Source: Polyangiaceae bacterium
Lineage (GTDB): Bacteria; Myxococcota_A; Polyangia; Polyangiales; Polyangiaceae
Assembly: GCA_015075635.1 (NCBI GenBank)
Contig: JABTUA010000002.1
Location: 744,001-808,000 of the forward strand
Direction of reading: 5' to 3'
Length of the DNA: 64,000 nt
Shown here: in pieces, positions 2,057-59,844 of the stretch
Position numbering within the stretch: the first letter of the stretch is position 1
Layout: each line of letters begins with the position of its first letter
Translations under genes and position numbers: made by a program
The notes under the pieces: generated by a model
Database searches by the model: none
Told to the model about the DNA's origin: nothing
What the model saw: only the letters and a program-made list of their open reading frames with translations

Positions 2057-2069
2057 CGCCGAGCGTCCG

Positions 2070-3287: not shown

Positions 3288-3443
3288 GAGGGAGGGCCCC
3301 ACCGTGGCCCACGGGCGCGGTCTTTTCAACTTCGTGGCAACGATTTTCGTGCCGGATCCCGCGTCGCGCACGAAAGCCAGCGGATCTCGCGATTTTGGCC
3401 TGGCTTGACCAAACGCTCAGGGGTTGTCGAGACTCGGCTCGTG

Positions 3444-4295: not shown

Positions 4296-4296
4296 G

Positions 4297-4554
4297 ATGA
4301 GCTGCGTGCGCCTGAGCATCGAACCCGATTTGTGCGGACCCGTGAGCGTCGGCACGGTGAAGGTGATCCGCGTGGTCGAGCGGACGCTCGAGTTGAGCCT
4401 GGGCGAGGCGCTCCGCTACGTGAACCGCTCGGTCTTCGACGGCGAGACGGTGTGCATTCCTGCGCCCTCGCCCGCCGCCGCCGCCGCTTGTGTGGCAGAG
4501 CTCGATGCGCTTCGTACCGGCGCCAGCGTGCGCGCGCACGCCGAGGCGGATTGA
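4297..4554 (+). CDS. Small protein resembling the ribosomal L7/L12 C-terminal domain
   Basis: An 85-residue protein. The middle, VKVIRVVERTLELSLGEAL, followed by a GxxV strand, an Ala-rich helix and a final TGASVRAH strand, follows the beta-alpha-alpha-beta-alpha-beta pattern of the L7/L12 C-terminal domain, in which V-I-K-x-V-R and L-K-E-A are conserved. Genuine ribosomal L12 also has an N-terminal dimerisation domain, absent here. This is therefore probably a stand-alone L12-CTD-like protein of unknown partner. It sits between the FGE-like lipoprotein (1 bp gap) and a cupin whose ATG overlaps its TGA, so all three are probably translated from one mRNA. Confidence 0.65.
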   Translation: MSCVRLSIEPDLCGPVSVGTVKVIRVVERTLELSLGEALRYVNRSVFDGETVCIPAPSPAAAAACVAELDALRTGASVRAHAEAD

Positions 4555-4907
4555 TGGACTTCGACCCCGCTAGGGTCGTCCGCCGCGAAGCCCTGTTCGG
4601 AGGCGTGGGCAGCGTGCTGGTCCAGGCGCTCGAAGAGAGCCCGCTGCCGGCGCCGTTCACCACGGTCCTGCTGTGCGAGCTCTCGCCGGGCGGTCGGGTC
4701 GGCGCCCATGTGCAGCAGACGGACTCCGAGATCGTCGTGGGCCTCGCGGGAGAGGCGGTGCTCTACGTGGACGGTCTGGCCCACGCGCTCCGCCCTGGCG
4801 GCGCTGCGGGTCTGCCTCTCGGGGGCAAGCTCGAGATCGACAACGCCAGCGCGGAAGCGCCGTTCCGCTACCTGATCGTCAAGGCCGCCTACTTGCCGTC
4901 GCGGTAG
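4554..4907 (+). CDS. Cupin-domain protein
   Basis: A 117-residue single-cupin protein. The cupin motif 1 region reads LSPGGRVGAHVQQTDSEIVVGLAGEAVL and motif 2 reads ALRPGGAAGLPLGGKLEIDN. The usual metal ligands are only partly kept (one His after the first Gly-rich turn, a Glu in the later position), so this may bind a small molecule without being a metal enzyme. The ATG overlaps the TGA of the previous gene (TGATG at 4552-4556), which fixes the start and implies translational coupling. Its 3' end overlaps the convergent lipoprotein gene by 19 bp. Confidence 0.75.
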   Translation: MDFDPARVVRREALFGGVGSVLVQALEESPLPAPFTTVLLCELSPGGRVGAHVQQTDSEIVVGLAGEAVLYVDGLAHALRPGGAAGLPLGGKLEIDNASAEAPFRYLIVKAAYLPSR

Positions 4908-5494
4908 TTCGAGACGGCGAGCGACGCACCGGTCTCGAACGGGGGGAGCAGATCCTCTTCGAGCTGCTTGAAGCTGTGGAGCGATGGGCACTTCTTGTCC
5001 GCCCGGGTGATCTTCTTCTCGGAGAGCACCTTGCCGGTCTTGGTGTCCCGCAGCCTGACGACATAGTCCCAGCCGTAGGTGGTGAGCGTGCCGCCCATCT
5101 TGGAGGGGTCGAGCGGCTTCATCTCGCAGGTGGTGAGCTTCTTCTTCTTCGTGACCTCGATGCAGGCGACCAAGCTCGCGTCCTCCAGCGAGACGGCGAG
5201 GCCATCTTTGTAGGCGACGACGCTCTCGTAGGGCACGTGCTCGAGCTTGCCCGCCGGGTCGCTCTTGACGAACAGCGCGGCTCGGGCCTTGTCGCGCGGC
5301 TGGGGCTCGATGTTCGGCACCCCCTGGCCCGCGCAGACCTTCTCGAGCTCGGAGACGCTCGGCCGGTAGGGCAGCTTGGGCGGCGGCGGGGCTGGAGTCG
5401 CCGCCGGGGCGGCAGTGGAGGCAGCGCTCTTCTCCGAGCCCTTGCAGGCCAGGAGCGCGCTGAAGATCAGGAGGAGCCAGAGCTTCGGATTCAT
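4889..5494 (-). CDS. Predicted lipoprotein of unknown function
   Basis: 201 residues. A short signal peptide (MNPKLWLLL) ends in the lipobox LLAC-K, followed by a Ser/Ala/Pro-rich linker to about residue 40. The globular part has two features resembling small extracytoplasmic domains: paired cysteines (VCAGQG, LVACIEV, TTCEM, KKCPS) that could form disulfides, and alternating beta-strand-like segments. I do not recognise the family. The ATG overlaps the stop of the agmatine deiminase gene (ATGA at 5491-5494), so it is the last gene of the aguB-aguA operon. That link to polyamine metabolism is only contextual. Confidence 0.7.
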   Translation of the reverse strand: MNPKLWLLLIFSALLACKGSEKSAASTAAPAATPAPPPPKLPYRPSVSELEKVCAGQGVPNIEPQPRDKARAALFVKSDPAGKLEHVPYESVVAYKDGLAVSLEDASLVACIEVTKKKKLTTCEMKPLDPSKMGGTLTTYGWDYVVRLRDTKTGKVLSEKKITRADKKCPSLHSFKQLEEDLLPPFETGASLAVSNYRDGK

Positions 5495-6561
5495 CCGGGT
5501 TCCTGCTGTGTGCTGCAGTGCAGAGTGCCGAGACCGAGCACCAGATCGCGGCAGAATACGCCGACCACCTCCCGCTTCGGGAAGAGCTCGCGCATCACGC
5601 CGAGCACCTGGCCGTCCCGGGGGTCGTTGAAGGTGGGGACGAGCAGGACGCCGTTGGCCAGGTAGAAATTCGCGTAGCTCGCCGGCAAGCGCTGACCGGC
5701 GAACACCACGGGCTCCGGCATGGGCAGCGGCACGACCTCGAGCTTCCTCCCCCGGGCGTCCGTGGCGCCGCGCAGGCGCTCGGCCGCCCGGGCCAAGATG
5801 CGCTGGTTCGGGTCGCGCCGGTTCTTCTCCTGGCAGAGCACGACGCGCCCTGGCGCAACGAAACGCGCGAAGTCGTCGATGTGCCCGCTGGTGTCGTCCC
5901 CCTCGATGCCCTCCGGCAGCCACAGCACCTTGTCGACGCCGAGCTCCTCGCGGAACACCCGCTCCGTGCCCTCGCGGCCGAGAGCCCGATTGCGCGCCCG
6001 CGGCCCGCTGAGCAGGCACTGCTCGGTAGCGAGCAGCGTGCCCTCGCCATCCACGTCGATGGCGCCGCCCTCCAGCACGACCCGTGCCGGCTTGCCGTGC
6101 CGGCGGTAGGCCGGTCGGGACACGAGCTCCGCGTAGCGCGTGGCGACGGCGTCGCCCGCCTCGTCGTCGCGCTTCCAGTCCGGGTAGCGCGCCCAGCCGT
6201 TGAACTGCCACTTCACGGCCGCGACGCGCCGCTGGCGGTCCACCACGAAGCTGGGAAGGAAGTCCCGGGTCCAGGAGCGATTGGTGGGCGCGACGAAGAA
6301 GTCCACGCGAGCGAGGTCCACGCCCTCCTGCGCGAGCTTCTTCTTGGCGTGGCTCCTCTGGGCGCGGCTCGAGACGAGCAGCCGCACGCGCTCGCGGCGG
6401 TGGAGCAGCCGAGCCATCTCCACGAACACCCACTCGACCATCAGCCCTTTGCCGGGCCAGTCCGTCTCGTTGTGGGGCCAGGCGAGCCAGGTCGCCGCGT
6501 GGGGCTCCCACTCGGCGGGCATGCGGAAGCGCGTCTGTCTTGCCGCAGCGCTAGCGGCCAT
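5491..6561 (-). CDS. aguA: Agmatine deiminase
   Basis: 356 residues, the usual length for the family. Agmatine deiminase converts agmatine to N-carbamoylputrescine plus ammonia through a covalent thiouronium on cysteine. Family marks are the N-terminal MPAEWEPHAATWLAWP, the RDFLPSFVV aspartate region, EGGAIDVDGEGTLL, GHIDDFARF and the C-terminal GLGTLHCSTQQEPG, in which Cys349 is the predicted nucleophile. ATG 6561 is chosen because it overlaps the TGA of the amidase gene (TGATG at 6563-6559). The two genes encode consecutive steps of putrescine synthesis from agmatine. No arginine decarboxylase is in view. Confidence 0.93.
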   Translation of the reverse strand: MAASAAARQTRFRMPAEWEPHAATWLAWPHNETDWPGKGLMVEWVFVEMARLLHRRERVRLLVSSRAQRSHAKKKLAQEGVDLARVDFFVAPTNRSWTRDFLPSFVVDRQRRVAAVKWQFNGWARYPDWKRDDEAGDAVATRYAELVSRPAYRRHGKPARVVLEGGAIDVDGEGTLLATEQCLLSGPRARNRALGREGTERVFREELGVDKVLWLPEGIEGDDTSGHIDDFARFVAPGRVVLCQEKNRRDPNQRILARAAERLRGATDARGRKLEVVPLPMPEPVVFAGQRLPASYANFYLANGVLLVPTFNDPRDGQVLGVMRELFPKREVVGVFCRDLVLGLGTLHCSTQQEPG

Positions 6562-7448
6562 CACTTGCCCCGATCCAGGTAGCGCTCGAGCAACCCCGCG
6601 TAGGCGTCGATGCGGCGATCGCGCAAGAACGGCCAGCCGCGACGCTGCTCTTCGATGCGTCCGAGGTCGAGCTCGACCACCAGCGTCTCCTCGCCGGTGC
6701 CCGCCTCCGCGAGCACCACACCAGCCGGATCGCACACGAACGAGTGGCCCCAGAACTCGAGCCCGCCGTCGTTCGGCCCCTCGTGGCCGACGCGGTTCAC
6801 CGCCACCACGAACACGCCGTTGGCGATGGCGTGGCTCTTCTGCATGGTCTGCCAGGCGGCGAGCTGCGCCGCGCCGTGCGACGCTTTCTCTTGCGGGTGC
6901 CAGCCGATGGCCGTCGGGTAGAACAGGATCTGGGCCCCGGCCAGCGCGGTGAGGCGCGCGCCCTCCGGGTACCACTGGTCCCAGCACACGAGCGGGCCGA
7001 CCTTGGCGAAGGGCGTGTCCACGCTCATGAAGCCGAGATCACCCGGCGTGAAGTAGAACTTCTCGTAGAACAGCGGGTCGTCGGGGATGTGCATCTTGCG
7101 GTACACGCCCAGCTCTTCGCCCCGCGTGCCGAGCACGACGGTGGTGTTGTGGTAGAGGCCCGGCGCGCGGCGCTCGAACATGCTGGTCAGGACCACCACG
7201 CCGAGCTCCTGGGCGACCTTCGCGACGGCCGAGACGGTGGGGCCGTCTTTGGCCTCGCCCAGGTCGAACAACGCCGCGTCTTCGACCTGGCAGAAGTAGG
7301 GCGAGGCGAACAGCTCCTGCAAGCAAACGATCTGGGCGCCGCGCCCCGCCGCGACCCGGACCTGAGCCAGCGCCTTGTCGATGTTGGCGCTCTTGTCGTC
7401 CAGCGTCGACATCTGCACGAGGCCGACCTTCACGCTCTGCTTGGCCAT
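6561..7448 (-). CDS. aguB: N-carbamoylputrescine amidase
   Basis: 295 residues, a nitrilase-superfamily amidase that hydrolyses N-carbamoylputrescine to putrescine, CO2 and ammonia. The catalytic triad is readable: Glu45 in CLQELF, Lys118 in GVYRKMHIPDD and Cys155 in PLVCWDQWYPE. HIPDDPLFYEKFYF and the WDQWYPE stretch match the AguB subgroup better than general nitrilases. It is first in a minus-strand operon with aguA and a lipoprotein, all joined by overlapping start and stop codons. There is a 47 bp gap to the unrelated Cys-rich lipoprotein upstream. Confidence 0.93.
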   Translation of the reverse strand: MAKQSVKVGLVQMSTLDDKSANIDKALAQVRVAAGRGAQIVCLQELFASPYFCQVEDAALFDLGEAKDGPTVSAVAKVAQELGVVVLTSMFERRAPGLYHNTTVVLGTRGEELGVYRKMHIPDDPLFYEKFYFTPGDLGFMSVDTPFAKVGPLVCWDQWYPEGARLTALAGAQILFYPTAIGWHPQEKASHGAAQLAAWQTMQKSHAIANGVFVVAVNRVGHEGPNDGGLEFWGHSFVCDPAGVVLAEAGTGEETLVVELDLGRIEEQRRGWPFLRDRRIDAYAGLLERYLDRGK

Positions 7449-7495
7449 CTTGGCCGGAAGCTAGCCGAAGCCGTGGGCCTGGGGAACCCGGCTCG

Positions 7496-8599
7496 TCAGC
7501 TGCAGCTGCCGGACGGCGCACAGGCGCCACCCACGCAGTGTTCGCTGTAGCAGACGTCGTCCACCGTGCACTGGGCGCCGAGGTGCTGGCGCGCGCGGCA
7601 GGTGCCGTTCTCGCAGCGGGCGCCGGCGGCGCACAGATCGTCGTCGAACAGCTTCCCGCACGCCTGCCCTGCCGCCGGGCGCGGCGTACAGGTGCCGTCG
7701 AACGAGTTCTGCAGCACCTTGCAGTACTGATCCGTGGGGCAGCCGTCGGGAATCGCGATCTTGCAGGCGGCGCCCGCGGCGAAGGGCGCGCCGCACGCGG
7801 TCACGATCTTGCCGGTGGTCGTGTCCACGCTCTGCACGATGCAGCGCAGGTCGGCGGTGCACGCTGGCTTGCCGTCGAAGAAGCAGGGGTCGCCCAGCTT
7901 GCCGGAGAACCCGTCCTCGAAGGTCTTGCATGCGCCCGGCTTCTTGCCGTCATCGTCGCTGCCAAGGCAGAAGAGCCCAGGCTGACACTCCGGCGCGGTG
8001 CCGCCGCCTTCGCAGGGCTGGCCCAACGCTGCCGGCACGATGCACTTGTCCGTGGCCTCCGAGCACTTGAGCCCCGCGGCGCAGTCCGAGTCCTGGTCGC
8101 AGCTGCCTCCCGCCAACTCCTTCGACGAGCACTTGCCGGGACAAGCCGCGGCGACCTTGCAGTAGGTGTCGCCACCCTTGCACTCCATGTCCGCCTGACA
8201 GTCGCCGCCGACCTCGACGGTGCCGTCGAGGGCGGCGGTACACTCGGTGGGCTCACCCTCCAGGCTGCAGCCCCGCTTCTCGATGGCGCTCAGGCAGGCT
8301 TTGACCTTCGTGCCGTCGTAGAGGACCTTGCCGTCGTCGATGGCCTGCTTGATGCGCGGCAGCTCGTCGCCGATGGCGGTCTCGTAGTTGGTCTGGCAGC
8401 TTTCGCCGGCCAGAAACACCTCGAGCAGACCGGCGAAGCAGGCCTCGTACGCCTTGCAGACGGCGCCGGCGTAGAGCCCCGGCACGTCCTCGATGGGCAC
8501 GCTGCTCTCGCTCAGGCCGCTGTCGCTGTCGCCGCCGCAGGCGCCGACCAGCAGGGAAGCACACAGACTCGCACCGAACCAACGCATCGCCGCTCGCAT
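7496..8599 (-). CDS. Cysteine-rich lipoprotein
   Basis: 367 residues from ATG 8599. A signal peptide (MRAAMRWFG, hydrophobic core, lipobox VGAC-G) is followed by a helical segment of about 100 residues and then about eight Cys-rich repeats of the type C-x-x-D-x-D-C-x-x-G-L-x-C. These resemble the disulfide-rich Dickkopf/EGF-like repeats common in myxobacterial surface proteins. The protein is presumably outer-membrane anchored and disulfide bonded, and may act in adhesion or binding, but the ligand is unknown. The start is set by a GGAGGA site 7 bp upstream. It is divergent from the acyltransferase gene. Confidence 0.78.
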   Translation of the reverse strand: MRAAMRWFGASLCASLLVGACGGDSDSGLSESSVPIEDVPGLYAGAVCKAYEACFAGLLEVFLAGESCQTNYETAIGDELPRIKQAIDDGKVLYDGTKVKACLSAIEKRGCSLEGEPTECTAALDGTVEVGGDCQADMECKGGDTYCKVAAACPGKCSSKELAGGSCDQDSDCAAGLKCSEATDKCIVPAALGQPCEGGGTAPECQPGLFCLGSDDDGKKPGACKTFEDGFSGKLGDPCFFDGKPACTADLRCIVQSVDTTTGKIVTACGAPFAAGAACKIAIPDGCPTDQYCKVLQNSFDGTCTPRPAAGQACGKLFDDDLCAAGARCENGTCRARQHLGAQCTVDDVCYSEHCVGGACAPSGSCS

Positions 8600-43539: not shown

Positions 43540-46500
43540 TCAGCTCGCCGCGAGCTGCTTTCGCCGTGAGCCGACGTAGACCTCGCCGGTCGTGCCGTGG
43601 ATGCTCACCACGTCCCCCTTCTTGATGCGGTGGAGCACGTTGCCCTGAGCATCGCGGATCAGGGCCTCGTGCCGGTCCCCGAAGACGCTCAGGTTCTGAC
43701 CGCTGACCACGCCCGAGTAGTCACGATCGAGCCCGTTGCACGCGACGGCCGCGTGCGAGGTCGAGCCGCCGCGAGCGGTGAGCAGCCCACCCGCGGAGAT
43801 GATCAGCGGGATGTCGTCTGGCGTCGGGTTCTCGATGATCAGCAACAACCCGTCCACGTCGTCGCGCTGACTGAGATCGACCTTGGACAACTCGGCGAGA
43901 TCGGCGTCGTCGAACACCGCCAGCCCGCGGAAGCCGCCGCCGCGCACTCCGAGGCCGCGCGTGGCGGGCTCGCCGGGCTCCAGAAAGCGGTCCGTCGCCT
44001 GGTCGATGCGCGCCTCCGCACGTCGCGTCTGCAACACGCTCAGCACGCCCCGCTCCACCGTGAACTCGATCTCCTGGTCGGTGCCCATGAAGCGCCGGAT
44101 CTTCGCTACCGCGTGCTTGAGCCGCGTCTCGAGCATGGGCATCAAGGTCTCCAGCTCGCCGATCGGGCGGAACGAGTCGGCGAAGGTGACGCCGCTCACC
44201 AGATCGTCCCCGGCGGCCGAGAACTTGACCTCGCCGTCGAACGCCCGCACGCCGGCGCTCGTCGGGAACGTCCGGGTGATGACACCGGTCAGAGAGGCGC
44301 GCGTCTCGTCCATTCCCGGCTCGATGCTGTCGTTGACGCTGTTCCCGAACGCCATCTCTTGCACGATGACGGCCGTGCTCCAGCTGTGGCAAAGGCCCTT
44401 GATCTCGCGGAAGCGGCTCGCCGTGTCCGCGTCCCAGCAGGCGTAGACGGCGTTCACCGCGCAAACCAGCTGTGAGAACGGGTCGGCCAGCGCCGCGTCG
44501 AGCTCTCTGCCGTAGCCGGCTTCGCGCAGCCGGCGCTTGGACTCGTCGGCGACCTCCTTCATCGCCTCCCAGGGCAGCTCGTGCTTGTAGCGCACGCCGT
44601 GGCGCTGCTTGGCCTTCTCGACCAGATCGTGTTGCTCGAGGTCCACGCCCCAGACCGCGCCGGAATACGATGCCAGGAAGCGCCGGTACGAGTCGTAGGC
44701 TCGCCAGGGACCGTCCGCGGCGAGCTTCTCGGCGATGGCGTCGTTCATGCCGACGAACACCACGGTGGAGAGGATGCCGGGCATGCTGAAGACCGAGCCA
44801 CCGCGCACCGCGAGCACCATCGGGCTCTCTTCCACCACGCCGAAGCGCTTCTCGACGCCGTCGCGCCGACTGACGTCACGCTCGAGAATGGCCAAGTGCT
44901 CGGCGAGCTCGCGGCGCAACCGCGCCGGATCGCGCCGCTGGAGGCCTGCTCGGCCGTAGCTCGTGGGCAAGACGAAGCCGTCGCGGGTCGGGACGTTCAG
45001 GTAGCTGATGTAGCAGAGCCCGCTCCCCTTGCCGCCGTAACGCTCCCGCAGGCTGCGTGTCCCGCTCTCGTCTCGCACCCATTCGGCGATCGCTGCACGG
45101 TGCGAGATGTGGAGCACCGGGTCGGTGACTCGTGCGAGGTCCAGCTCGGGCCGCGGCTTGCGCAGCGGCTCCCCCCGGGCGAGCCGCGCGCGCACGAACG
45201 TCGCGGCGAAGTCCGAGAAGCTCACCATGCAGTTGAGGTCGTGCATGTAGCGCTGGATGTTGGCGAGGATCTGCCGCAGGTCGCCGGGCTGCAGCCCGAG
45301 GCGCTCCTGCATCTTCTCGTACGGCATGGTCACCCGCTGGCGCACCCGGTGGTAGACGCGCTCGATGTTCTCGAGCACGTTCAAGAGCTCCTCGTCGCTG
45401 CGCATCGGATCGGCGAGCATCACGCCGAAGTCGTTCAGCTCACGCGAGAACAACCCGTCGAAGCGCAGGTTCGTCGCGCACATCCGGATGATCTCGACGC
45501 ACTGAGCGAGGTCGACCCCGTGCTCGTGATAACTCGTGGCCACGTGCCGGAGCGCGAGGTAGCCCATCTCTTCGAGCAGTCCCTCGAGCTGACAGAGGTA
45601 GTAGCGCTGCTCGTCGAAGGCCGCGTCTTGAATCAGCTTCACGATCAGCGCGCGTGCCGTGCGCGTCTTGTCGAACGCCTCGAAGAAGCGCTCGGCCTCG
45701 TGCGCCTCCAGCGTCTGCGCAAGGGCGTTGAACAGCTCGTCCTGGTGGGCGGCGCGGATCTCGCGCACGAAGGCCTCCACGCCTTCGCGCAGCGCGCGCT
45801 CGGTGGACTCGCGGTCGAAGCCGGCCTCGTCGGGCTTCTGCTGCGCGGCCTCGGCGATGCGCGTTCTCAGCTCTCCGCCAAGGCCTTCGGGCCACCAGAA
45901 GCTCTGGGTCTTGCCCTCCAGAATGCGCAGGTGATGGTAGTAGACCCAGCGGTTCTTCTCGATCAGACCCTTCTCGACGATGGTCTCGAGCTCCTGTTCG
46001 ATCGAGCTCCCGAACTCGCAGCGGGTGAGCACCTCGGCATAAGATTCCTGCCACTCCTCGATCCGCTTGACGATCTGCGAGGTGCCGAGCAAGCGCTGCA
46101 GGTCGTCGACCACGCGTTCCAAGATCTCGAGCGGCTCGCCCTTGCCGCGGGCGTCGTGGTCGGCCTTGCTCGGCTCCCCGAAGCCGAGGTTCGCCAGGCC
46201 CGCGCTGTCGCCGGTCTGGAGAAACTCACGGTAGGCGAGCGCGATCTGCAGCGTGCGCTTCCCGAGCGCGTGGTGGCACGTCCGCCTGAGCTCGTTCACC
46301 ACCGCGCTACCGGGCACCCGGATCTCGGCCAGCTCGATGGTGTCGTTCCACAGCCGGTCGATCACGTTCGGCTTTCCCACCAGGCTCGACAGATTGCGCA
46401 CGACGAGGCGAGACAGGAGCAACAGCCGGCGGCGCAGGGGGCCGTTCAGGAAGCGGGTCAGCTGCGCCGTGAGGGCTCGGATCTCGGGCTGCAGGTTCTT

Positions 46501-49500
46501 GGCCCCCAGCAGGTCCTTGACGGACAGGTGGCTGAGCCGCGCCGCGAGCGCCCTGAGCCAGAACACCGCATGATTTCGGTTGGTCGTGGCGTTGACCTTC
46601 TCGAGCAGAGCCGCGACGTCCCGGATGCGGACGATGGGAAGCAGCGGTGTCTCTTCGGGGCGGACCAAGTAGAGCAGGGACTCGAGGTCGATCGGCTCGC
46701 CGCTCGCGCCGGCGACGCGCAGCACCAGGGCGTCCGTGAAGATCGTGCCGGGGGCGAAGCGCCTCTCGACGAGCACCGAGCTCTGCTCGGCCGCGGCGCG
46801 ATGCAAGCTCAGCTCGTTGTCGATCAGGTATGGGATCAGCAGCTGCTCGCCGCTCCTGAACACCCGGTTGTTCACGATGCCGAAAGGACGCTCCGGTCGG
46901 GCGAGGCGTGACTTGGCCGCGAGGTAGCCGCGGAGCGCGGCCTGAAGGTCGGGCTTTTCACCGAGCAGCGTCGAGGCCAACGCGCGGTCGAGCTCCGCCA
47001 GGACGGCGGCGTCCGGGCTCGGCGCTCCGGCGCTGGCCGGCGGCTCCGATTCTGCTGACTCCGGCTCCACCTGCTCGGTCGGCGCGAGCGCGCGCGCCGG
47101 CGAGTACGCGTCCCGCAGCGCGCGGAAGTAGTCCTTTGCGAAAGCGACGTCGGGGCCGTCGCCTTCGCCCCGCGCGAGCTCGCCGAGCGCGTGCTCTGCG
47201 AGCGCTGCCGGCGGCTCGGTCACGTGCTCGCGGATCCAGCGCACCACGCCGGCGGCTCCGACCATGCGATCACCGGCGGGTTGCTCCTTCCCGAGACGTT
47301 CGAAGAATCGACGCGTGAAGCCGAAGTCCCCCTCGGCGAGCTTGCGCGTGGCGTCGAACGCGAGCGACTCGTAGCGAGCGGTCGCGTCGCCGGGGATGCG
47401 CTCGAGTGACGCTTCCCGTCGAGCGTAGGCGGCGACGTAGCGGTAGACGCCCTTTGGCCCGAACGCCTCGAGCTGGTCGGCGTCATAGAGGAGCTGCGCC
47501 TCGAGCCCCGCCTGCTTGCGCCGCTCGACTCCCGCCGAGCTTCGATCTTCGTGCAGCACGATGGCATCGGCCACGCGCTCGACCTCTCTCTCGCCGAACC
47601 CCCGGAGCTCGGGCAGCAGCGCCCGCGCGCGCTCCGCTCCTTCGGCTCCGTGAGGGGCCTTCTCCGCGGCGACATCGTGCAGGCCAATCGCAGCCGCCAG
47701 CACGCGCCAGTCCACCTCTTGCTCCACACCGAGCGCGGCGACCAGGCGCTCTGCTCGGCCGAGGAGGTCCTTGGCGTGTACGAGGCCGTGATGAGCGTCG
47801 TTGCGGTAGCCCGCTCCGAGACGCTCGGCGATCGAGTCGAGCACCTCCGCCGCGACGGCCGGCGACGCGCTCGTCGCGGCCAGCTCCGGCGCCCGCTGGG
47901 CCGGGACCGGGAGCAGCTCCGGCACGAGCTCCGGCTCCGGCTCCGGCTTCGGTCGGGCTCTGCGCGGAGGACGTGGCGGCTGGGCGCTCGGCGCCACCAG
48001 CTGGGGCTCGGCGCCCGGCGCGAGATAGATGCCGGTGAGCTCGCGCAGCACGTCGTGCAGCGGCTTGCCTTCGCGCTCGAGCAGACCCGTCACCTCGCGC
48101 AGCGCTGCGACGTAATCTTCGAAGCGGCTGCCGGCGATCTCCACACCGTGGAGCGCGGCGAGCCGGTCCACGATGGACATCATCTCCTCCCGCAACAGCT
48201 CGTAGAGCTCCTTGCCCTGCACGCGAGCGATGGCGCGCCCCAGCGCCAGCGACACGCTCAACATGGCGTTCATGCCGATGTTCTGCTTGCGCTGCATCAC
48301 GCGAATACGGTCTACCAGCGCGGCATCTTCGGCGATTTTGCCGCGACGGGTGGCGGTTCGGAGCTCGAGGCCGAGCAGCGCGCGGTCGAGGTCGAGCAGG
48401 CCGAGCTCCGCCACGTTCTTGCCCTCGAACCACGGCGCCAAGATCCGGGTCACGTTGTCCACGGCTCCGAGACAACCCTTGCCTCCGTAGCGCTGCGCGC
48501 GAAGGTAGAGCTCGGTGAGATCGTCGTCGCCCTCGGCGCGGATGCGGGCCTCGTCCAGGCCCTTCTTGAACGCGTGGACGCCGAGCTCCACGTCCTTGAA
48601 CAGCGAGGGGAAGCGGTCGACCACCTCCTTGTGCTCGGCATACTCGACGGCGGAGTCGACCAGGTGGATGGCCTCGCCGGTCCCGGCCGACGTCCCGAGC
48701 GGCGTCGCGCCCCTGAAACGCAGCGAGACGCTGCCCGCGGGCAGCCAGATCTCTGCCGTGCTGCCCACCGTGGGAATGCCCGCGTTCGTCGGCTCCTCGT
48801 AGCCCCGGATCTTCCGCACCAGCGCCTGATCGCCCTCGGCGAGCCCCTGGCTGTCGAGCGACTCGTCGAGCTTCAGCAGCAGCTCGGACACGGCCTGGTA
48901 CTTCACCAGCCGCTCGGTGTTGGCGCCGCCGCCGGCCTTGAGCCCGAGCGAGTTGGCCGCGAGCGCGATGTGCGCCTCCATGTCGTCGTTGGGGCTCTTC
49001 GAACGGTGCGACACCACCAGCTCGAGGCCCTTGCCCAGCGCCACCAGCATCGCCAGCAAGGTCTCGTAGAGGGACCCAATCTGGTTGGCCTTGATCAGGG
49101 CGCAGTTGATCAGTCCCTGATCGGCGGCCTGCTCGATGGTCTTGTCGTTGGTGGTGACCAGGTCGTCGCCGATGATGAACACGCTCTTGCCGAGCTTCTC
49201 TTCGAGCAGGCGCCAGCCCTCGTGGTCGTTCTCGGAGAAGCCGTCTTCGATGGACAGAAGCGGGATCTCGTACTTCTCGATCGCCTGGGTGTACACCTCG
49301 AGCACGCCGTCGCGATCGAGCACCGTCTTGGCCTTGTCGCGCCAGAACAGGTACATGCCCACCGCGTCCGGGACGTTGTGCTCGTCCCGATACGCCAGCT
49401 CGAGCTCGCTCAGCGCCGGATCGAGCGCGATGGCCACGTCCACACCCGGACGGCAACCGCAGTCGGCGATGGCGCGCTTCATCATCGACCAGAGGCGCAC

Positions 49501-50535
49501 CTCGGGCAGCGGATAGTCCCCCTTCTCGATGTAGGGAGCGAGCCCGCCCTCCAGGCCGATGCCCATCACGCGGCAGCCCTCTTCCTTCTCGATGATCTCC
49601 TTGAGCCGGTTCTGCAGCCGGACCGTCAGCTCCTGCGCCTCCTGATAGCTCGTGGCCGAGAGGATCAGGAACATCGCCTCCTGCATGCTCACGTTCGACT
49701 CGGGGTACTCCTTCTCGGTGTGGCGGCCGCCCATCCCGCAGTTGCGGAACTGCCAGGGAGCGGAGACGGCGCCGAGGCGCGGGTGAGTTCCCGTCTGCAT
49801 CCGGGTCCCGAGCATGCGGCGCTTGAGCTCCGGCGCCTGCGCCAGCCAGCCCGACAGCTCACCGACGGCCCTGGCCTTCTCCTCGGCCTGCCGCTCGCGG
49901 TCACGGAATGCTTTGTACTTGCCAGGGTCGGCCAGCTTGAAGTCGAGGAACGAGACCACACCAATGCCCAGGAGCAGGCGGCCCAGGTAGATGGGCACGG
50001 TGTGATCGCCGGTCAGGCCGACCGCGAGCAGCGCGATGGCCGGCGGCAGCGTGAACAGCGCTGCATTCCGACTCGCTCGCGGACCCGCCGCAGAGACGGC
50101 CAGGTTGTAGGGAGCGTCCGGGTAGTAGTTCAGTCCCTCGCGCTTGATGCCCGGAGCCTTGCCGTAGGGAATCAGCAGCCCGAGCTTCACGTACCAGAAG
50201 AGCCGCGCGGCGAGCGGAGCTCGCAGCCGCTCCTGGACCTGCTCGAGCACGCTCTCGCTCAGCGCGTTGAGGCGCGCAGCCGTAGAGAAATGGCCGAGCT
50301 CGTGCCAGGCGATGCAGAAGTGGAACGTCACGTACGTGAACAGCGCCGAGACCAGCGTCTCTGGGCTCACGAAGATGAAGCCGAGGACCTGCCCCTTCAG
50401 GAGTGACTCGGCCGGGAGGGCCAGCACCGAAGAGATGAACGCGACGTGAAACGCCACGAGGATGTGGTTGGCGATGACCCAACCTTCCTGGAGAGCAGCG
50501 CCACCGCTCGGTCGCTGCCCGTGTGCTCGTTGCAT
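43540..50535 (-). CDS. Giant multidomain protein: M50-like membrane domain, circularly permuted enolase, HD domain and PPDK-like ATP-grasp/phosphohistidine module
   Basis: 2331 residues, start supported by GGAGG 5 bp upstream (50541-50545). Order: membrane helices with HELGH (His78, Glu79, His82; about 1-215); enolase barrel (262-556) placed BEFORE the enolase N-terminal domain (572-783); Pro/Glu-rich linker (840-890); HD domain (905-1035, HD at 953-954, His995, Asp1018); long helical part (1180-1820); and a PPDK-like ATP-grasp (1828-2180) with phosphohistidine swivel (His2261 in GGSTSH). Enolase residues are kept: H272, E286, E329, D372, E430, D457, K482, H510-R511-S512, K533; the lid PLGTSAGTGEA (612-622) resembles the canonical Ser loop. 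The PEP/pyruvate barrel of PPDK is missing. A link between enolase-made PEP and the swivel is a guess. Confidence 0.93.
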   Translation of the reverse strand: MQRAHGQRPSGGAALQEGWVIANHILVAFHVAFISSVLALPAESLLKGQVLGFIFVSPETLVSALFTYVTFHFCIAWHELGHFSTAARLNALSESVLEQVQERLRAPLAARLFWYVKLGLLIPYGKAPGIKREGLNYYPDAPYNLAVSAAGPRASRNAALFTLPPAIALLAVGLTGDHTVPIYLGRLLLGIGVVSFLDFKLADPGKYKAFRDRERQAEEKARAVGELSGWLAQAPELKRRMLGTRMQTGTHPRLGAVSAPWQFRNCGMGGRHTEKEYPESNVSMQEAMFLILSATSYQEAQELTVRLQNRLKEIIEKEEGCRVMGIGLEGGLAPYIEKGDYPLPEVRLWSMMKRAIADCGCRPGVDVAIALDPALSELELAYRDEHNVPDAVGMYLFWRDKAKTVLDRDGVLEVYTQAIEKYEIPLLSIEDGFSENDHEGWRLLEEKLGKSVFIIGDDLVTTNDKTIEQAADQGLINCALIKANQIGSLYETLLAMLVALGKGLELVVSHRSKSPNDDMEAHIALAANSLGLKAGGGANTERLVKYQAVSELLLKLDESLDSQGLAEGDQALVRKIRGYEEPTNAGIPTVGSTAEIWLPAGSVSLRFRGATPLGTSAGTGEAIHLVDSAVEYAEHKEVVDRFPSLFKDVELGVHAFKKGLDEARIRAEGDDDLTELYLRAQRYGGKGCLGAVDNVTRILAPWFEGKNVAELGLLDLDRALLGLELRTATRRGKIAEDAALVDRIRVMQRKQNIGMNAMLSVSLALGRAIARVQGKELYELLREEMMSIVDRLAALHGVEIAGSRFEDYVAALREVTGLLEREGKPLHDVLRELTGIYLAPGAEPQLVAPSAQPPRPPRRARPKPEPEPELVPELLPVPAQRAPELAATSASPAVAAEVLDSIAERLGAGYRNDAHHGLVHAKDLLGRAERLVAALGVEQEVDWRVLAAAIGLHDVAAEKAPHGAEGAERARALLPELRGFGEREVERVADAIVLHEDRSSAGVERRKQAGLEAQLLYDADQLEAFGPKGVYRYVAAYARREASLERIPGDATARYESLAFDATRKLAEGDFGFTRRFFERLGKEQPAGDRMVGAAGVVRWIREHVTEPPAALAEHALGELARGEGDGPDVAFAKDYFRALRDAYSPARALAPTEQVEPESAESEPPASAGAPSPDAAVLAELDRALASTLLGEKPDLQAALRGYLAAKSRLARPERPFGIVNNRVFRSGEQLLIPYLIDNELSLHRAAAEQSSVLVERRFAPGTIFTDALVLRVAGASGEPIDLESLLYLVRPEETPLLPIVRIRDVAALLEKVNATTNRNHAVFWLRALAARLSHLSVKDLLGAKNLQPEIRALTAQLTRFLNGPLRRRLLLLSRLVVRNLSSLVGKPNVIDRLWNDTIELAEIRVPGSAVVNELRRTCHHALGKRTLQIALAYREFLQTGDSAGLANLGFGEPSKADHDARGKGEPLEILERVVDDLQRLLGTSQIVKRIEEWQESYAEVLTRCEFGSSIEQELETIVEKGLIEKNRWVYYHHLRILEGKTQSFWWPEGLGGELRTRIAEAAQQKPDEAGFDRESTERALREGVEAFVREIRAAHQDELFNALAQTLEAHEAERFFEAFDKTRTARALIVKLIQDAAFDEQRYYLCQLEGLLEEMGYLALRHVATSYHEHGVDLAQCVEIIRMCATNLRFDGLFSRELNDFGVMLADPMRSDEELLNVLENIERVYHRVRQRVTMPYEKMQERLGLQPGDLRQILANIQRYMHDLNCMVSFSDFAATFVRARLARGEPLRKPRPELDLARVTDPVLHISHRAAIAEWVRDESGTRSLRERYGGKGSGLCYISYLNVPTRDGFVLPTSYGRAGLQRRDPARLRRELAEHLAILERDVSRRDGVEKRFGVVEESPMVLAVRGGSVFSMPGILSTVVFVGMNDAIAEKLAADGPWRAYDSYRRFLASYSGAVWGVDLEQHDLVEKAKQRHGVRYKHELPWEAMKEVADESKRRLREAGYGRELDAALADPFSQLVCAVNAVYACWDADTASRFREIKGLCHSWSTAVIVQEMAFGNSVNDSIEPGMDETRASLTGVITRTFPTSAGVRAFDGEVKFSAAGDDLVSGVTFADSFRPIGELETLMPMLETRLKHAVAKIRRFMGTDQEIEFTVERGVLSVLQTRRAEARIDQATDRFLEPGEPATRGLGVRGGGFRGLAVFDDADLAELSKVDLSQRDDVDGLLLIIENPTPDDIPLIISAGGLLTARGGSTSHAAVACNGLDRDYSGVVSGQNLSVFGDRHEALIRDAQGNVLHRIKKGDVVSIHGTTGEVYVGSRRKQLAAS

Positions 50536-50540: not shown

Positions 50541-50545
50541 CCTCC
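50541..50545 (-). promoter_or_regulatory. Ribosome binding site of the giant gene
   Basis: GGAGG on the minus strand lies five bases before the ATG at 50535, a strong placement that supports this start for the 2331-residue protein. Confidence 0.6.
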
Positions 50546-50714
50546 TTCGGGTCGGGGATGTGCCGATCCGGAGCGTACCGAAAGCAGTCGGCAGCACGTT
50601 GATCGATCGCAACAACGACGAAGCGCGTCCGTCCTCGAGTGCGCGCGACTTGCGCCCAGCGAGCTCGCTCACCCCCGGAGACGCACTGAATGCGCGTCTC
50701 GAGCTGGTCTTCAC

Positions 50715-54824: not shown

Positions 54825-55442
54825 CTATCCTCTCCTGCCCGCCAGCGCCGCCGCGACGTACCGCCCGTCGTGCGACAAGCTCACGTCGAGGCCGGTGGGC
54901 ACGCCTCGGTCGCACAGCCTCGGCGGCTCGAAGCCGTCGTAGCTGGCGGGCGACGGCCGGCGCTCGACGCTGAGCTCGGCGCCCGACACGCCGAGCACCT
55001 CGGCGGCCATGCGGCACAGGAGCTCGCGGCCGGCGGCGCTCGCCCGCGCGTGCTCGCCCAGCTCGCTGACCTCGAAGCGGGGATCCGCCGGGCCGACGCT
55101 GGCGAGCGCGTGCACCCATCCTTCAGCGTGCCCGACTCGGAGCGCGATCTCGCGGTCGTCGTAGCGCGACGAGCCGAGATCCCCCGCGACCTCGATGCGC
55201 TTGTGCGAGAGCCCGGGCTCCTCGCCGAGCTTCACCAAGAGCTTGTAAGCGGCCTCCTTCGCGGCGAAGAAGCACCAGAACAGGCGCTCTGGATCCTGCG
55301 CCGCTTCGAGCACGCGCCGCTCGGCCAGCGTGCAGACCCGCTCCACGTACCCCGGCCGCGCGAAGGACTCGCGGTTGTCCGGGTCGCCCAGGTCCACCAC
55401 GTCGTTGCCGACCAGCGCGAGCTCGCCGAGTATTGGCGTCAT
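54825..55442 (-). CDS. 4'-phosphopantetheinyl transferase
   Basis: 205 residues. The superfamily motif pair is present: GNDVVDL (Asp14, Asp17) and FFAAKEAAYK (59-67, Lys62-Glu63 binding Mg2+/CoA). It moves phosphopantetheine from CoA to the serine of an acyl carrier protein. Its ATG overlaps the TGA of the acyl carrier protein gene (ATGA at 55442-55439), so it likely primes that ACP (Ser43). It is the last gene of the fatty-acid operon. At 205 residues it is between AcpS and Sfp lengths. Confidence 0.87.
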   Translation of the reverse strand: MTPILGELALVGNDVVDLGDPDNRESFARPGYVERVCTLAERRVLEAAQDPERLFWCFFAAKEAAYKLLVKLGEEPGLSHKRIEVAGDLGSSRYDDREIALRVGHAEGWVHALASVGPADPRFEVSELGEHARASAAGRELLCRMAAEVLGVSGAELSVERRPSPASYDGFEPPRLCDRGVPTGLDVSLSHDGRYVAAALAGRRG

Positions 55443-55693
55443 GCCTTCGCCGCGAGGATGAGCTTCACCGCGTCGCCGATGGTCTTCACCTTGTCGGCGT
55501 CCTCGTCCTTCACCTCGATCTCGAAGGCGTCCTCGATCTCGAGCACCACGTCCACCAGGCGCGCGGAGTTGACCTTCAGGTCCTTCAAGATGGAGGTCTC
55601 CATGCCGGCGCCGGCCAGCGCCTCGGGCGCCTTGGCGAACGGCTTGATGATGGACACGACCTTCTCGAACACTTGTTGCTCAGACATGCTCAT
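55439..55693 (-). CDS. Acyl carrier protein
   Basis: 84 residues from ATG 55693, chosen because AGGAG lies six bases upstream (a second ATG is six bases later). The helix-II region is ILKDLKVNSARLVDVVLEIEDAFEIEV, with Ser43 taking the place of the Ser in the usual D-S-L motif, here N-S-A. The change next to the modified serine sets it apart from housekeeping ACPs and may be why a dedicated transferase is encoded next to it. It carries the growing chain for the enzymes of this operon. Confidence 0.88.
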   Translation of the reverse strand: MSMSEQQVFEKVVSIIKPFAKAPEALAGAGMETSILKDLKVNSARLVDVVLEIEDAFEIEVKDEDADKVKTIGDAVKLILAAKA

Positions 55694-55701
55694 GGTTTCT
55701 C

Positions 55702-56979
55702 CTATTCCGACCATTTCCTGAAGATGACGCAGCCGTTCACGTCGCCGAAGCCGAAGCTGGCCTTGGCGACGGTGCGGAGCTCGGGCAAATCTCGGGTCTC
55801 TCGCAGCACCCGCGCGGCGTATTTCGCCAGCTCGGGGTGCAGATCCTCGCAGTTGATGGAGCCGTGGGCGAAGCCGCGCCCGAGCTGGAGCACGCTGGCC
55901 ACGCACTCGATGCCGCCCGCGGCGCCCAGCGCGTGGCCGATGAGCGACTTCGTGGACTGGATGAGCGGTAGCGTCTCCGGCGTGAGCTCGAGGGCCGCGC
56001 GCCAGTTCTCGACCTCGTGCGGATCGGCGAAGGTCGCGGTCAGGTGGCCGTTGATCAGATCGATCTCGCTCGGCCGGATGCCGGCCATGGCCACGGCGCC
56101 GCGGATGCAGCGCTGCACGCTCACCGGGTTCGGCGCCGTCATGCTGCCGCCCAGGCGGTGACCGCCGCAGTTGACGTGACCGCCGAGCAGCTCGGCGTAG
56201 ATCCGCGCGCCGCGCGCGCGGGCGCTTTCCAGGCTCTCCAGCATCAAGACGCCGGCGCCGGAGCCGGGGATGAAGCCGGCGGCGCTGGCGGACATGGGGC
56301 GTGAGGCCTCGGCCGGAGCGTCGTTCTTGGTGCGGTTCAGCACCTTCATCGCGTCGAAGCCGGCCCAGATGTACTTGGAGTGGCCCTCGGAGCCGCCGGC
56401 CAGCATGCGCTCGGCGCGGCCCTCGCGGACGCGCAGGAAGGCGTCCACCACGGCCTCGGTGCCGGTGTTGCACGCGCTGGAGTTGGTGGTGACCTGGTTA
56501 CCCAAGCCGAGCAAGCCCGCCACGCGCGCGCTGTTCCCGCTCGACATGATCTGCTCGACCATGGTGCTGCCCAGGCGCGCCACCTTGCCGGCGTCGGTCT
56601 TGGGCGCGAGCTTCTCCGCGATGGTGTCGATGCCGCCGATGCCGGTGCCGAGCACGGCGCCGGTGTTCCAGTCGGGCTCGGCGTCGGCGGCGACGCGGGG
56701 CAGGCCGGAGTCGGTCCAGGCGTCGATGGCCGCGATGGCCGCGTACACCATGTTCGGGTTCATGGCGTAGAGCTCCTCGTCGGAGAGGTAGCGCCCCTGG
56801 ATCTCCTCCACGCCCTGCGGGATGCCGCCGACCTGGCAGCCGAATTTGAGCTCGGCGAGCTCCGGCACGAAGCGGATGCCGCTCTGCCCCGCGCGGAGCG
56901 CATGCTCGAAGGCGTCGAGCCCGTGGCCGTTCGGCGCGAGCACGCCCAGGCCCGTCACCACCACGCGCCGCTCAGCCAC
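55702..56979 (-). CDS. Beta-ketoacyl-ACP synthase II (FabF-like)
   Basis: 425 residues. Catalytic set: Cys170 in NSSACNTGTEA, His312 in INGHLTATF, Lys344 and His349 in TKSLIGHALGAAGG. The usual N-G-H-G-T-S-T is altered to N-G-H-L-T-A-T, so the active site is changed. It elongates acyl-ACP by malonyl condensation. The ATG overlaps FabZ by 8 bp, and the ACP gene starts 8 bp after its stop. Confidence 0.9.
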   Translation of the reverse strand: MAERRVVVTGLGVLAPNGHGLDAFEHALRAGQSGIRFVPELAELKFGCQVGGIPQGVEEIQGRYLSDEELYAMNPNMVYAAIAAIDAWTDSGLPRVAADAEPDWNTGAVLGTGIGGIDTIAEKLAPKTDAGKVARLGSTMVEQIMSSGNSARVAGLLGLGNQVTTNSSACNTGTEAVVDAFLRVREGRAERMLAGGSEGHSKYIWAGFDAMKVLNRTKNDAPAEASRPMSASAAGFIPGSGAGVLMLESLESARARGARIYAELLGGHVNCGGHRLGGSMTAPNPVSVQRCIRGAVAMAGIRPSEIDLINGHLTATFADPHEVENWRAALELTPETLPLIQSTKSLIGHALGAAGGIECVASVLQLGRGFAHGSINCEDLHPELAKYAARVLRETRDLPELRTVAKASFGFGDVNGCVIFRKWSE

Positions 56980-57427
56980 GCCCGACCCCCATTCCAGCCA
57001 CGGTGCCCTTGGCGACCGAGTCGCCGTTCGCGAGGGAGAGCACCACGTTCGACTTGAGCTTCCTGCGTCTCCAGAACACCTTCTCCGCCTCCACGCGCAC
57101 CGTGTCGCCGGGCCGGACGATGCGCTCGAACTCCACCTGGCAGTCGGTGAAGAGCGTGACCGTCTTCGCCACCTCTTCCTTCGGCACCTCGAGCCCGAGC
57201 AGGTAGATGCCGAGCGCGACCAGGCCGGTCTGACACATGGTCTCGATCAGGATCACGCCGGGCGTCACCGGGTCGCCGGGGAAATGCCCGGGGTAGAACG
57301 TCTCGTCCGCGCGGAAGGTGTATTCGCCCACCGCGCGCGTGTCGCTGAGCTCGATCAGACGATCGATGAAGCGGAACGGCCGCTGCTGCGGGATGAGCGC
57401 CAGCACCTCTTCCGAAGACAGCGTCAT
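56972..57427 (-). CDS. 3-hydroxyacyl-ACP dehydratase (FabZ-like)
   Basis: 151 residues. The hot-dog active-site helix is FYPGHFPGDPVTPGVILIETMCQTGLVALG, with His48 and Glu62. FabZ removes water from 3-hydroxyacyl-ACP of all lengths without isomerising. It overlaps the FabA-like gene (ATGA at 57427-57424) and the FabF-like gene (8 bp). Coexistence with a FabA-like gene in the same operon is unusual and is treated in the findings. Confidence 0.9.
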   Translation of the reverse strand: MTLSSEEVLALIPQQRPFRFIDRLIELSDTRAVGEYTFRADETFYPGHFPGDPVTPGVILIETMCQTGLVALGIYLLGLEVPKEEVAKTVTLFTDCQVEFERIVRPGDTVRVEAEKVFWRRRKLKSNVVLSLANGDSVAKGTVAGMGVGRG

Positions 57428-58023
57428 GCCTCGCTCCGATCCATGATGCCGCCGACGCTGTTGGCGGATTTCAGCGGGTAGTCCGGGTAGGCGATGCCCA
57501 GGAACATGCCGACCTTGGCGTCCTTCACCGTGTAGATGAGCTCGCCGTCCACCAGCACCTTGGCGCTGCCGATGGCGACCGCGGAGCCCGACTCCTTCAG
57601 CTGCGAGAAGCGGCGGATGTCCACCTCGTAGCGGACGACCTTGTTGTAGGGGCGGATCTGCCCGGCGAACTCCACTTCTTTGCAGCCCAGGGCGCGGCCC
57701 GAGCCGGGCGCACCCGCCGCGGAGATGTATAGGCCCACGAGCTGCCAGACCGCGTCCACGCCGAGGCAGCCGGGCTGCACCGGGTCGCCGCGGAAGTGGC
57801 AGTGGAAGAACCAGTCGTCCAGGTGGATGTCCTGCTCGCCGACGATGCGGCCGCGGGGACCGGTGCGGGTGATCTCGAGCACGCGGTCCACCATCAGCAT
57901 GGGCGGCGCCGGCAGGCGGATGAACTCCGCCGGCGGATCCTTCACCAGGTTGCCCTGGGAGATGGCGAGCAGCTCTTCCTTGCTGAAGCTCGTGCGCTGG
58001 AGGAACTCGGCGTAGGAAATCAT
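57424..58023 (-). CDS. 3-hydroxydecanoyl-ACP dehydratase/isomerase (FabA-like)
   Basis: 199 residues. WFFHCHFRGDPVQPGCLGVDAVWQLVGLY matches the FabA active-site helix, with His76 and Asp90. FabA-type enzymes both dehydrate and isomerise to the cis-3 form, seeding unsaturated acids; FabA-like partners also occur in clusters for aryl polyenes and other lipids. N-terminal SYAEFLQRTSFSKEELLA is an extra helix pair. ATG 58023 overlaps the KS III gene stop (ATGA). Confidence 0.9.
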   Translation of the reverse strand: MISYAEFLQRTSFSKEELLAISQGNLVKDPPAEFIRLPAPPMLMVDRVLEITRTGPRGRIVGEQDIHLDDWFFHCHFRGDPVQPGCLGVDAVWQLVGLYISAAGAPGSGRALGCKEVEFAGQIRPYNKVVRYEVDIRRFSQLKESGSAVAIGSAKVLVDGELIYTVKDAKVGMFLGIAYPDYPLKSANSVGGIMDRSEA

Positions 58024-59024
58024 CGGCTCTCCTCGATGTCGATGCGCAGGCTCGACCAGGTGAGCCCCGAGCCCACCACGGCGACGAGCACGCTGTGGCC
58101 CGGCTTGAGCTCTGCCCAGTGCTGCGACAGCACGCAGGGTGCGCCCGAAGCGCCGGTGTTGCCGAACTGGATCACGTTGTGCCACTGCTCGTCCCAGCCG
58201 AGCCCCGCGCGGCGCGCCACCGACTCGAGCACCAGCAGGTTCGCCTGGTGGCCGACGAAGTGGATGCGGCCGCCGGTCTCGTGGGTGCGCGCGCGGGCGC
58301 CGGGCAACATCGCCTCGAGGCAGGCCTGCGTGGTCTTGATGGCGAAGCGCTGCACCGCGCCGCCGTCCTGCGTGAAGTGACCGAAGCGCGGGATCACCAC
58401 CGAGCCGGCGCCGGCCGGCGACGAGGCGAGCGTCGTCTCCACCACGGCCGCGCGGGCGGGCACCTCGGAGGAGACGATGGCCGCGCTGGTGCCGTCGCCC
58501 CACAAGACGGCGGAGGTGCGATCCGCGTAGCTCACGGCGCGGGTGGTGTTCTCCGGGTTCACCACCAGGACGTAGGGGGGCAGCCCGCTCATGGACGCGA
58601 GCAGGTGAAGCTGCGCGCCGAAGCTCGAGCAGGCGCTGTTCAGATCGAAGGCCGGCACCTCGATGCCGAGGGCCTGGGCGATGCGGCAGGCCTCCGCCGG
58701 GATCTGCATCTCCGGACAGCAACCGCCCGCCACCACCATGCCGATGTCGCTGGGCCGGAGGCCCGCATGCTCCAGGGCCGCGAGCGCGGCGCGACGACCG
58801 GTCTCGACGTTGCTGTAGAGCGCGGCCTCTTGCCCCGCGCGAAGGTCGGCGTTCTTCGTCTCGCGGATGTAGTCCAGGGGCAGCACCGTGCGGCGTTCGC
58901 GGATGCCGACGCGCTCCAGGATCCACTCGTCGGTGGTGCCGATGTCCAGCTCCTCCAGGAAGCGGTTGTCGATCACGTTCTCCGGATGGAAGTGACCGAG
59001 GGCGTGGAGGTAGAGCTTCGGCAC
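58020..59024 (-). CDS. Beta-ketoacyl-ACP synthase III (FabH-like)
   Basis: 334 residues. Catalytic triad Cys132 in FDLNSACSSFG, His259 in FVGHQANLLVLE and Asn289 in QFGNTGASGAP. KS III starts chains by condensing acyl-CoA with malonyl-ACP. The pocket cannot tell the primer. It shares its stop overlap with the FabA-like gene and starts 5 bp after the reductase gene's stop codon. It is in the same unit as the malonyl transferase and ACP. Confidence 0.9.
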   Translation of the reverse strand: MPKLYLHALGHFHPENVIDNRFLEELDIGTTDEWILERVGIRERRTVLPLDYIRETKNADLRAGQEAALYSNVETGRRAALAALEHAGLRPSDIGMVVAGGCCPEMQIPAEACRIAQALGIEVPAFDLNSACSSFGAQLHLLASMSGLPPYVLVVNPENTTRAVSYADRTSAVLWGDGTSAAIVSSEVPARAAVVETTLASSPAGAGSVVIPRFGHFTQDGGAVQRFAIKTTQACLEAMLPGARARTHETGGRIHFVGHQANLLVLESVARRAGLGWDEQWHNVIQFGNTGASGAPCVLSQHWAELKPGHSVLVAVVGSGLTWSSLRIDIEESR

Positions 59025-59028
59025 GACC

Positions 59029-59844
59029 TCACCCCGCGATGTGCTCGCCGCCGTCCACGCGGATCAGCGCGCCGTTCACCCAGCGCGCCTCGTCCGTGCA
59101 GAGGAGCGCGATGAAGTCCGCCACGTCCGCCGGCGTGGTCAACCGGCCGAGGGGGTTCCTCGCGAGCGCGGCGGCCTTCATCTGCTCGCTGCCCGGGATG
59201 AGGCGCAGGGCCGGCGTGTCGGTGACCCCCGCCTGCACCACGTTCGAGCGCACGCCGAAGGGGCCGAGCTCGAGGGCCAGCGAGCGCGACACCGACTCGA
59301 GCGCGCACTTCGCGGCGCTCACGGCGGCGTAGCCGCGCCAGGCGACCTCGTTGCCCTCGCTGGTCATGCCGATGACGCGCGCGTCGTCGGCGAAGAGCTT
59401 CCGGGAGAAGACGTCCTGGGCCCAGCTCGCGAGGCTCGTGCCCATGCTGTACACGGTGCGCGCGAAGTCTTCGTCCTCGAGCCGCGCGTCGGCGTCGTAG
59501 GTCCCCGCGCCCTCCTGCCCGGGGGGCAGCGGGCCGAGGAGCTTGAGGTTGCCGTAGGCGATGGAGTGCATCAACAGGCGGACCTTTGCGCCCTTCGCCG
59601 CCAGCTCGTCCAGCACCTTGGCGCGGCCTTCGGCCGAGAGCGCGTCCAGGTTCAGGGCGAGGAAGCCCACGCCAGCATCGCGGATCTTCGCGAATTCGGG
59701 CTCGATGTTCGCCATGGCGCCGCGCCGATCGCGGTGCACCACGCACACGTTCATGCCGTGGCGCGCGACCTTCTGGGCGGTGGCCAGGCCGAAGCCGCTG
59801 GACCCACCGAGGATCAGCGCCCAGTGCGCAGGATCGAACTTCAC
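59029..59844 (-). CDS. SDR-type enoyl-ACP reductase (FabI/FabL-like)
   Basis: 271 residues from GTG 59844, which overlaps the FabD TGA (GTGA). The nucleotide loop is GGSSGFG (13-19). The active site is Tyr172-x6-Lys179 (GYAAVSAAK), the spacing of FabI/FabL enoyl reductases; the 3-ketoacyl reductase FabG uses Tyr-x3-Lys. MHSIAYG also matches the FabI/L pattern and the tail VDGGEHIAG is typical. It would reduce trans-2-enoyl-ACP with NAD(P)H. The chromosomal ketoreductase is not in this operon. Confidence 0.85.
   Translation of the reverse strand: MKFDPAHWALILGGSSGFGLATAQKVARHGMNVCVVHRDRRGAMANIEPEFAKIRDAGVGFLALNLDALSAEGRAKVLDELAAKGAKVRLLMHSIAYGNLKLLGPLPPGQEGAGTYDADARLEDEDFARTVYSMGTSLASWAQDVFSRKLFADDARVIGMTSEGNEVAWRGYAAVSAAKCALESVSRSLALELGPFGVRSNVVQAGVTDTPALRLIPGSEQMKAAALARNPLGRLTTPADVADFIALLCTDEARWVNGALIRVDGGEHIAG

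Follow-up and report, generated by a model that had tools for sequence, protein, structure and literature searches.

A reversed-order enolase fused to a predicted barrel-less, PPDK-type dikinase in a 2331-residue membrane-linked protein of a Polyangiaceae bacterium

Where does a PPDK-type phosphate carrier deliver its phosphate when the PEP/pyruvate barrel is missing from its chain? The question is raised by a gene on the minus strand of the window, by which we mean the whole 64,000-nucleotide stretch of Polyangiaceae DNA that was analysed (contig JABTUA010000002.1, positions 744,001 to 808,000). Its 2331-aa product is an undescribed enzyme consisting of a membrane domain, an enolase with its two domains in reversed order, and a barrel-less ATP-driven phosphate carrier. 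A ribosome-binding AGGAGG (50541-50546) is found 5 nt upstream of the ATG and, judged by the sequences of close relatives in four phyla, the gene is real. A PADLOC search for membership of the protein in a defence system returned no match. The gene and its phosphate-carrying domains are the following:

43540..50535, minus strand: the whole gene, 2331 aa, as one open reading frame; relatives of 2037-2217 aa have a common layout
44008..45066, minus strand: PPDK-type ATP-grasp nucleotide-binding domain, residues 1824-2176 (TIGR01828, PDB match, invariant residues)
43564..43875, minus strand: phosphohistidine swivel domain, residues 2221-2324 (PF00391, 8.3e-8 at 2231-2317; PPDK fold match)
43753..43755, minus strand: codon of His2261, the predicted phosphorylated histidine (aligned with PPDK His455)

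The original prediction, made from the letters of the sequence, assigned a PPDK-type nucleotide domain and a phosphohistidine domain to residues 1828-2325. This assignment is borne out by Pfam, by NCBIfam, by the match to the solved structure 1kbl and by the motifs, which lie where they had been placed. The residues in question correspond exactly to nucleotides 45054-43561, and the motifs begin at residues 1834 (GGKGSGL), 1909 (AVRGGSVFSMPG), 2155 (EIEFTVERG) and 2254 (ARGGSTSHAAV). The matches to PPDK-type domains in both collections are well above chance: the NCBIfam PPDK family TIGR01828 with an E value of 3.2e-68 (best stretch 1824-2174), Pfam PPDK_N with 2e-10, and PEP-utilizers (PF00391) with 8.3e-8. 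The whole-protein score against TIGR01828 is 230 bits, which is far under the family cut-off of 843. Among solved structures the best relative is the PPDK of Clostridium symbiosum (1kbl; E 2e-48), and the two matching stretches comprise its ATP-binding and swivel domains only.

Residues 1170-2331 were modeled with AF2 from an alignment of 16 sequences (mean pLDDT 72). In this model the ATP-binding plus swivel part matches 1kbl with a VIA Z of 25.8 over 337 residues (rmsd 6.3). The confidence of the AF2 modeling is moderate, with mean pLDDT values of 72 and 66 for two models, and falls below 50 where the ATP-binding domain ends and in the linker before the swivel. No variation was seen at K1836, R1911, E2157, Q2169, R2171 and H2261 among fused, split and stand-alone proteins whose sequence covers the position, and every relative that covers position 2261 possesses His there. 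That this histidine belongs to a swivel domain, as had been proposed, is confirmed by its location inside the PF00391 match and its alignment with His455 of PPDK.

The second element of the original prediction, that the PEP-binding barrel is absent and the protein ends soon after the swivel, also stands. PF02896 (PEP-utilizers_C) has no match anywhere in the 2331-aa chain at E up to 1; seven residues separate the end of the swivel domain from the end of the protein, and the chain stops at residue 2331, the point at which the barrel would begin in PPDK. A complete barrel hidden further upstream, between residues 1180 and 1820, was ruled out by Pfam, by a PDB profile search and by the AF2 model, in which no (β/α)8 barrel is seen in residues 1170-1820. 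A separate PEP-barrel gene was likewise ruled out for the genome: PF02896 occurs in it twice, once in a complete PPDK and once in a 615-aa frame resembling PTS enzyme I, with a swivel motif of its own. Since the family is confined to these two complete proteins, a PEP/pyruvate barrel supplied in trans is unlikely.

The same data bear on the proposal that the protein is part of a split PPDK or PEP synthase, its barrel coming from another gene in trans or being replaced, for pyruvate, by the enolase barrel. The PPDK type of the ATP-binding and swivel domains would agree with this, and enolase does bind PEP, but every PF02896 copy of the genome lies inside one of the two complete proteins, a PPDK is already present, and the dikinase part exists in other genomes without the permuted enolase. 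We therefore regard a split enzyme of this kind as highly improbable.

In front of the nucleotide-binding domain lies a region of a different character:

45106..46968, minus strand: new helical domain, the proposed acceptor domain, residues 1190-1810 (AF2 model; invariants over 29 sequences)

The AF2 model of residues 1170-1820 reveals a small β-subdomain followed by helices, mostly at pLDDT 70-90. Across 29 sequences, stand-alone forms included, the helical domain carries a dense set of invariant Arg, Lys, His, Asp and Glu residues, and its invariant positions include W1396, E1404, N1414, E1415, R1417, R1418, H1421 and H1422, among others. It is this conservation that suggests its role, namely that it probably binds the phosphate acceptor. 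In the window protein the domain belongs to no Pfam family above cut-off; weak matches such as MbeD_MobD fall under it. Fold comparison gave only generic helical bundles, all with VIA Z <10, and no convincing solved structure.

The remainder of the chain precedes the helical domain and is made up as follows:

49786..50484, minus strand: membrane domain, residues 18-250, with HExGH (78-82), AAGP and LDFxxADxGKY (hydrophobic segments; 12 aligned relatives)
48811..49773, minus strand: enolase TIM-barrel domain, residues 255-575, ahead of the N-terminal domain (PF00113, 1.1e-47; VIA Z 18.1 to 3tqp)
48136..48810, minus strand: enolase N-terminal (lid) domain, residues 576-800, behind the barrel (PF03952, 1.2e-10 at 586-781)
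47356..47820, minus strand: inserted HD-type domain, residues 906-1060, with H916/H920, H953-D954 and D1018 (Pfam HD 0.063, weak; NCBIfam PRK10119 1.6e-5)

An enolase in the same chain had been predicted, and is present as matches to both PF00113 and PF03952 with the catalytic residues intact. Its domain order is reversed. Pfam places the barrel at 265-570 and the N-domain after it at 586-781, and alignment of the family profile with enolase 5boe is crossed, profile positions 658-770 corresponding to residues 44-136 and positions 266-545 to residues 159-419. The barrel-first, N-domain-second order (48136-49773, minus strand) was found in every relative that covers the enolase, and in the split protein P0003 the two domains are similarly reversed. 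After rotated alignment all twelve classical active-site positions, namely S39, H159, E168, E211, D246, E295, D320, K345, H373, R374, S375 and K396 of yeast enolase, are identical to those of housekeeping enolases; the Mg ligands and the catalytic Lys and Glu are present and are invariant in the relatives. The genome encodes an ordinary enolase elsewhere, in a 437-aa frame. The literature searched, coverage of which was incomplete, yielded no description of a circularly permuted enolase in nature and none of an enolase-dikinase fusion. The loss of the barrel might be taken as the mark of a decayed, inactive PPDK-enolase fusion. This is extremely improbable, as every catalytic residue of the enolase and of the dikinase is invariant across phyla and full-length relatives, sporadic in occurrence, have frames of 2037-2217 aa that are open in many genomes.

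Hydrophobic segments abound in the first 250 residues. The H, E, G and H of the membrane domain and a later Asp are invariant in 12 aligned relatives, and on these features the domain would appear to resemble the core of an M50-type (site-2) protease; Pfam M50 did not match the protein at E<=1. The HD insert, its motif intact, is situated between the two halves of the protein in the window and in one Myxococcales relative (L023) only, and is absent from the remaining relatives. These two domains can also be read as signalling parts of a regulatory phosphocarrier or sensor, in which ATP-charged His2261 would pass its phosphate to another protein, in a relay like that of the PTS, and the helical domain would be a docking surface. 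The length of the helical domain, its want of any enzyme match and the absence of pathway neighbours are in keeping with such a protein, whereas full conservation of the enolase active site argues for a metabolic function, and no conserved partner gene was found. As a whole we hold this interpretation to be doubtful.

How the parts of the chain depend on each other is revealed by the relatives, for which purpose it is divided into module A, the HExGH membrane domain with the permuted enolase, and module B, about residues 1190-2331, which comprises the helical domain together with the ATP-binding and swivel domains. At locus L104 the modules are adjacent genes on the same strand, 23 bp apart, the first encoding 953 aa (membrane domain and permuted enolase) and the second 1179 aa (helical, ATP-binding and swivel domains). 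Among 348 genomes of one gammaproteobacterial order, 15 have A, scored by its membrane domain, and all 15 also have B, scored by its helical domain; conversely, no A was detected in 4 of the 19 genomes with B, three of these being stand-alone forms and one a match at a contig end. Five genomes (L101, L102, L103, L105 and L054) contain B alone with all key catalytic residues kept, and the only enolase in them is the ordinary one. Adjoining the stand-alone dikinase gene of L054 is a gene (383-7534, minus strand) for a lipoprotein-like, repetitive protein of 2384 aa whose Asp-rich repeats are of calcium-binding type.

Joint action of the two modules is indicated by their fusion, by the split gene pair and by a dependence of A on B that is not reciprocated. 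Because five relatives keep an intact B with an ordinary enolase only, B does not require the fused enolase as phosphate acceptor, a role which we set aside, and that enolase is probably not the sole acceptor site. A tree built from the ATP-binding and swivel sequences separates B as one clade from the PPDKs (support 100/100), on a long branch, and within it stand-alone proteins fall among the fused ones at several places. The pattern would fit an ancient fusion whose first half was lost repeatedly; gene transfer may lie behind part of the spread.

Scanning the genomes of bacteria and archaea yielded 24 loci, labelled as Myxococcota (Deltaproteobacteria), Acidobacteria, Gammaproteobacteria and Planctomycetota MAGs. 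The helical domain is rare and unevenly distributed: it was detected in 5/282 genomes of the window's phylum, 6/297 of the phylum of the Acidobacteria locus, 2/343 of that of the Planctomycetota locus, and 19/348 of the gammaproteobacterial order, and is absent in two genomes of the window's own genus. Since most relatives come from MAGs, a module missing in some genomes could be missing assembly. In two of the MAG contigs (L046, 3737-7208; L040, 5468-6118) the gene lies in two frames, probably as a result of assembly or sequencing frameshifts. On plasmids no relative spanned 80% of the query, and the top places went to PPDK-type matches; no relative was found on viral contigs. Gene neighbours belong to no families conserved beyond near relatives, and no pathway is thus indicated. 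Within the window, positions 54828-59844 (minus strand) are occupied by a fatty-acid/polyketide-like cluster, named by eye only, with ketosynthases, an acyl carrier protein, and dehydratase-like and phosphopantetheinyl-transferase-like genes.

As to the fate of the phosphate, the original prediction named two outcomes: a link to 2-phosphoglycerate and PEP through the enolase, or transfer to some other acceptor as in known dikinases. Transfer to a non-pyruvate acceptor is supported by the domain pair without a barrel; the direct link to 2-phosphoglycerate/PEP is weakened by the existence of stand-alone B. One form of that link is a machine leading from glycerate to PEP, in which the swivel would phosphorylate glycerate, or a similar acid, to 2-phosphoglycerate and the fused enolase would convert this to PEP, so that B feeds A. 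Consecutive enzymes are often fused, the enolase active site is intact, and in the order sampled A is never found without B. Set against this, B is found several times without a fused enolase, in which case it would have to feed the ordinary one; we consider the scheme unlikely. Put forward tentatively is the possibility of a new class of bifunctional enzyme anchored in the membrane, in which a dikinase with a novel acceptor fold makes or uses an enolase metabolite passed to or from the permuted enolase of the same chain, which would create a self-contained ATP-to-PEP point outside normal glycolysis.

The reading that we prefer, with a probability of roughly 0.55, is that of a membrane-anchored two-module enzyme: a PPDK-derived, barrel-less dikinase (B) with an accessory enolase module (A). 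To judge from the intact residues, ATP in the PPDK-type domain would phosphorylate His2261, as in PPDK and rifampin phosphotransferase (RPH), and the swivel domain would then carry the phosphate to an acceptor other than pyruvate in a PEP barrel. This acceptor would most likely be a small anionic molecule or a protein bound by the N-terminal helical domain, which may have taken over the role of the lost barrel. Module A would tether the complex at the membrane and interconvert 2-phosphoglycerate and PEP beside B, the enolase half presumably being an accessory that is dispensable for B.

Barrel-less dikinases are already known; it is the lineage represented in the window, its proposed acceptor domain, and the fusion to a permuted enolase that are new. 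The findings suggest that the PPDK lineage, besides the PEP-synthase-like lineage of the phenolic dikinases, has apparently shed its pyruvate barrel and gained an acceptor domain. The enolase may be the first natural circularly permuted one to be recognised, none having been found in the literature searched, and it is fixed in fusion with a dikinase in several phyla. The existence of natural stand-alone, split and fused versions makes the question of the acceptor testable with small soluble proteins.

By comparison with PPDK (TIGR01828; 1kbl), the ATP-binding domain is followed by the swivel in the same order, and the equivalents of K22, R92, E323, Q335, R337, T453 and H455 are kept, whereas the C-terminal PEP/pyruvate barrel is missing, an extra helical domain stands in front, the position of Asp321 is occupied by Glu, and the sequences form a separate, long-branch clade. 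Compared with enolase, the two domains and every classical active-site residue are retained, but in reversed order and in a 2331-aa membrane-linked chain, beside a housekeeping enolase. Glucan, water dikinases and phosphoglucan, water dikinases are also barrel-less, serve a non-pyruvate acceptor and possess carbohydrate-binding modules, but in these enzymes the swivel precedes the ATP-binding domain. The window protein has the opposite order, and no carbohydrate-binding module was matched by Pfam in its chain.

The precedent for a dikinase without the barrel is RPH, which transfers phosphate from ATP via phosphohistidine to a non-pyruvate acceptor (PMC4844700), and the two-component phenolic dikinases HpeHI, CreHI and PpsAB are likewise barrel-less and work by the same route (PMC12167813; also PMC7500099). 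The ATP-binding motif of these phenolic kinases bears a closer likeness to that of PEP synthase, and their acceptor and swivel domains go together (PMC12167813). The window protein shares with RPH and the phenolic dikinases an ATP-grasp and a swivel domain without a PEP barrel. Whereas their acceptor domain accompanies the swivel, the candidate described here is N-terminal and shows no recognisable sequence similarity to theirs. Its ATP-binding domain, unlike that of the phenolic dikinases, is of the PPDK type and adjacent to the swivel, with no space between the two for an acceptor domain of the RIF-binding type. RPH is not among the sequence (PDB) or fold matches listed, an absence that does not amount to exclusion. 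The window protein looks like a separate route to the barrel-less kind of dikinase.
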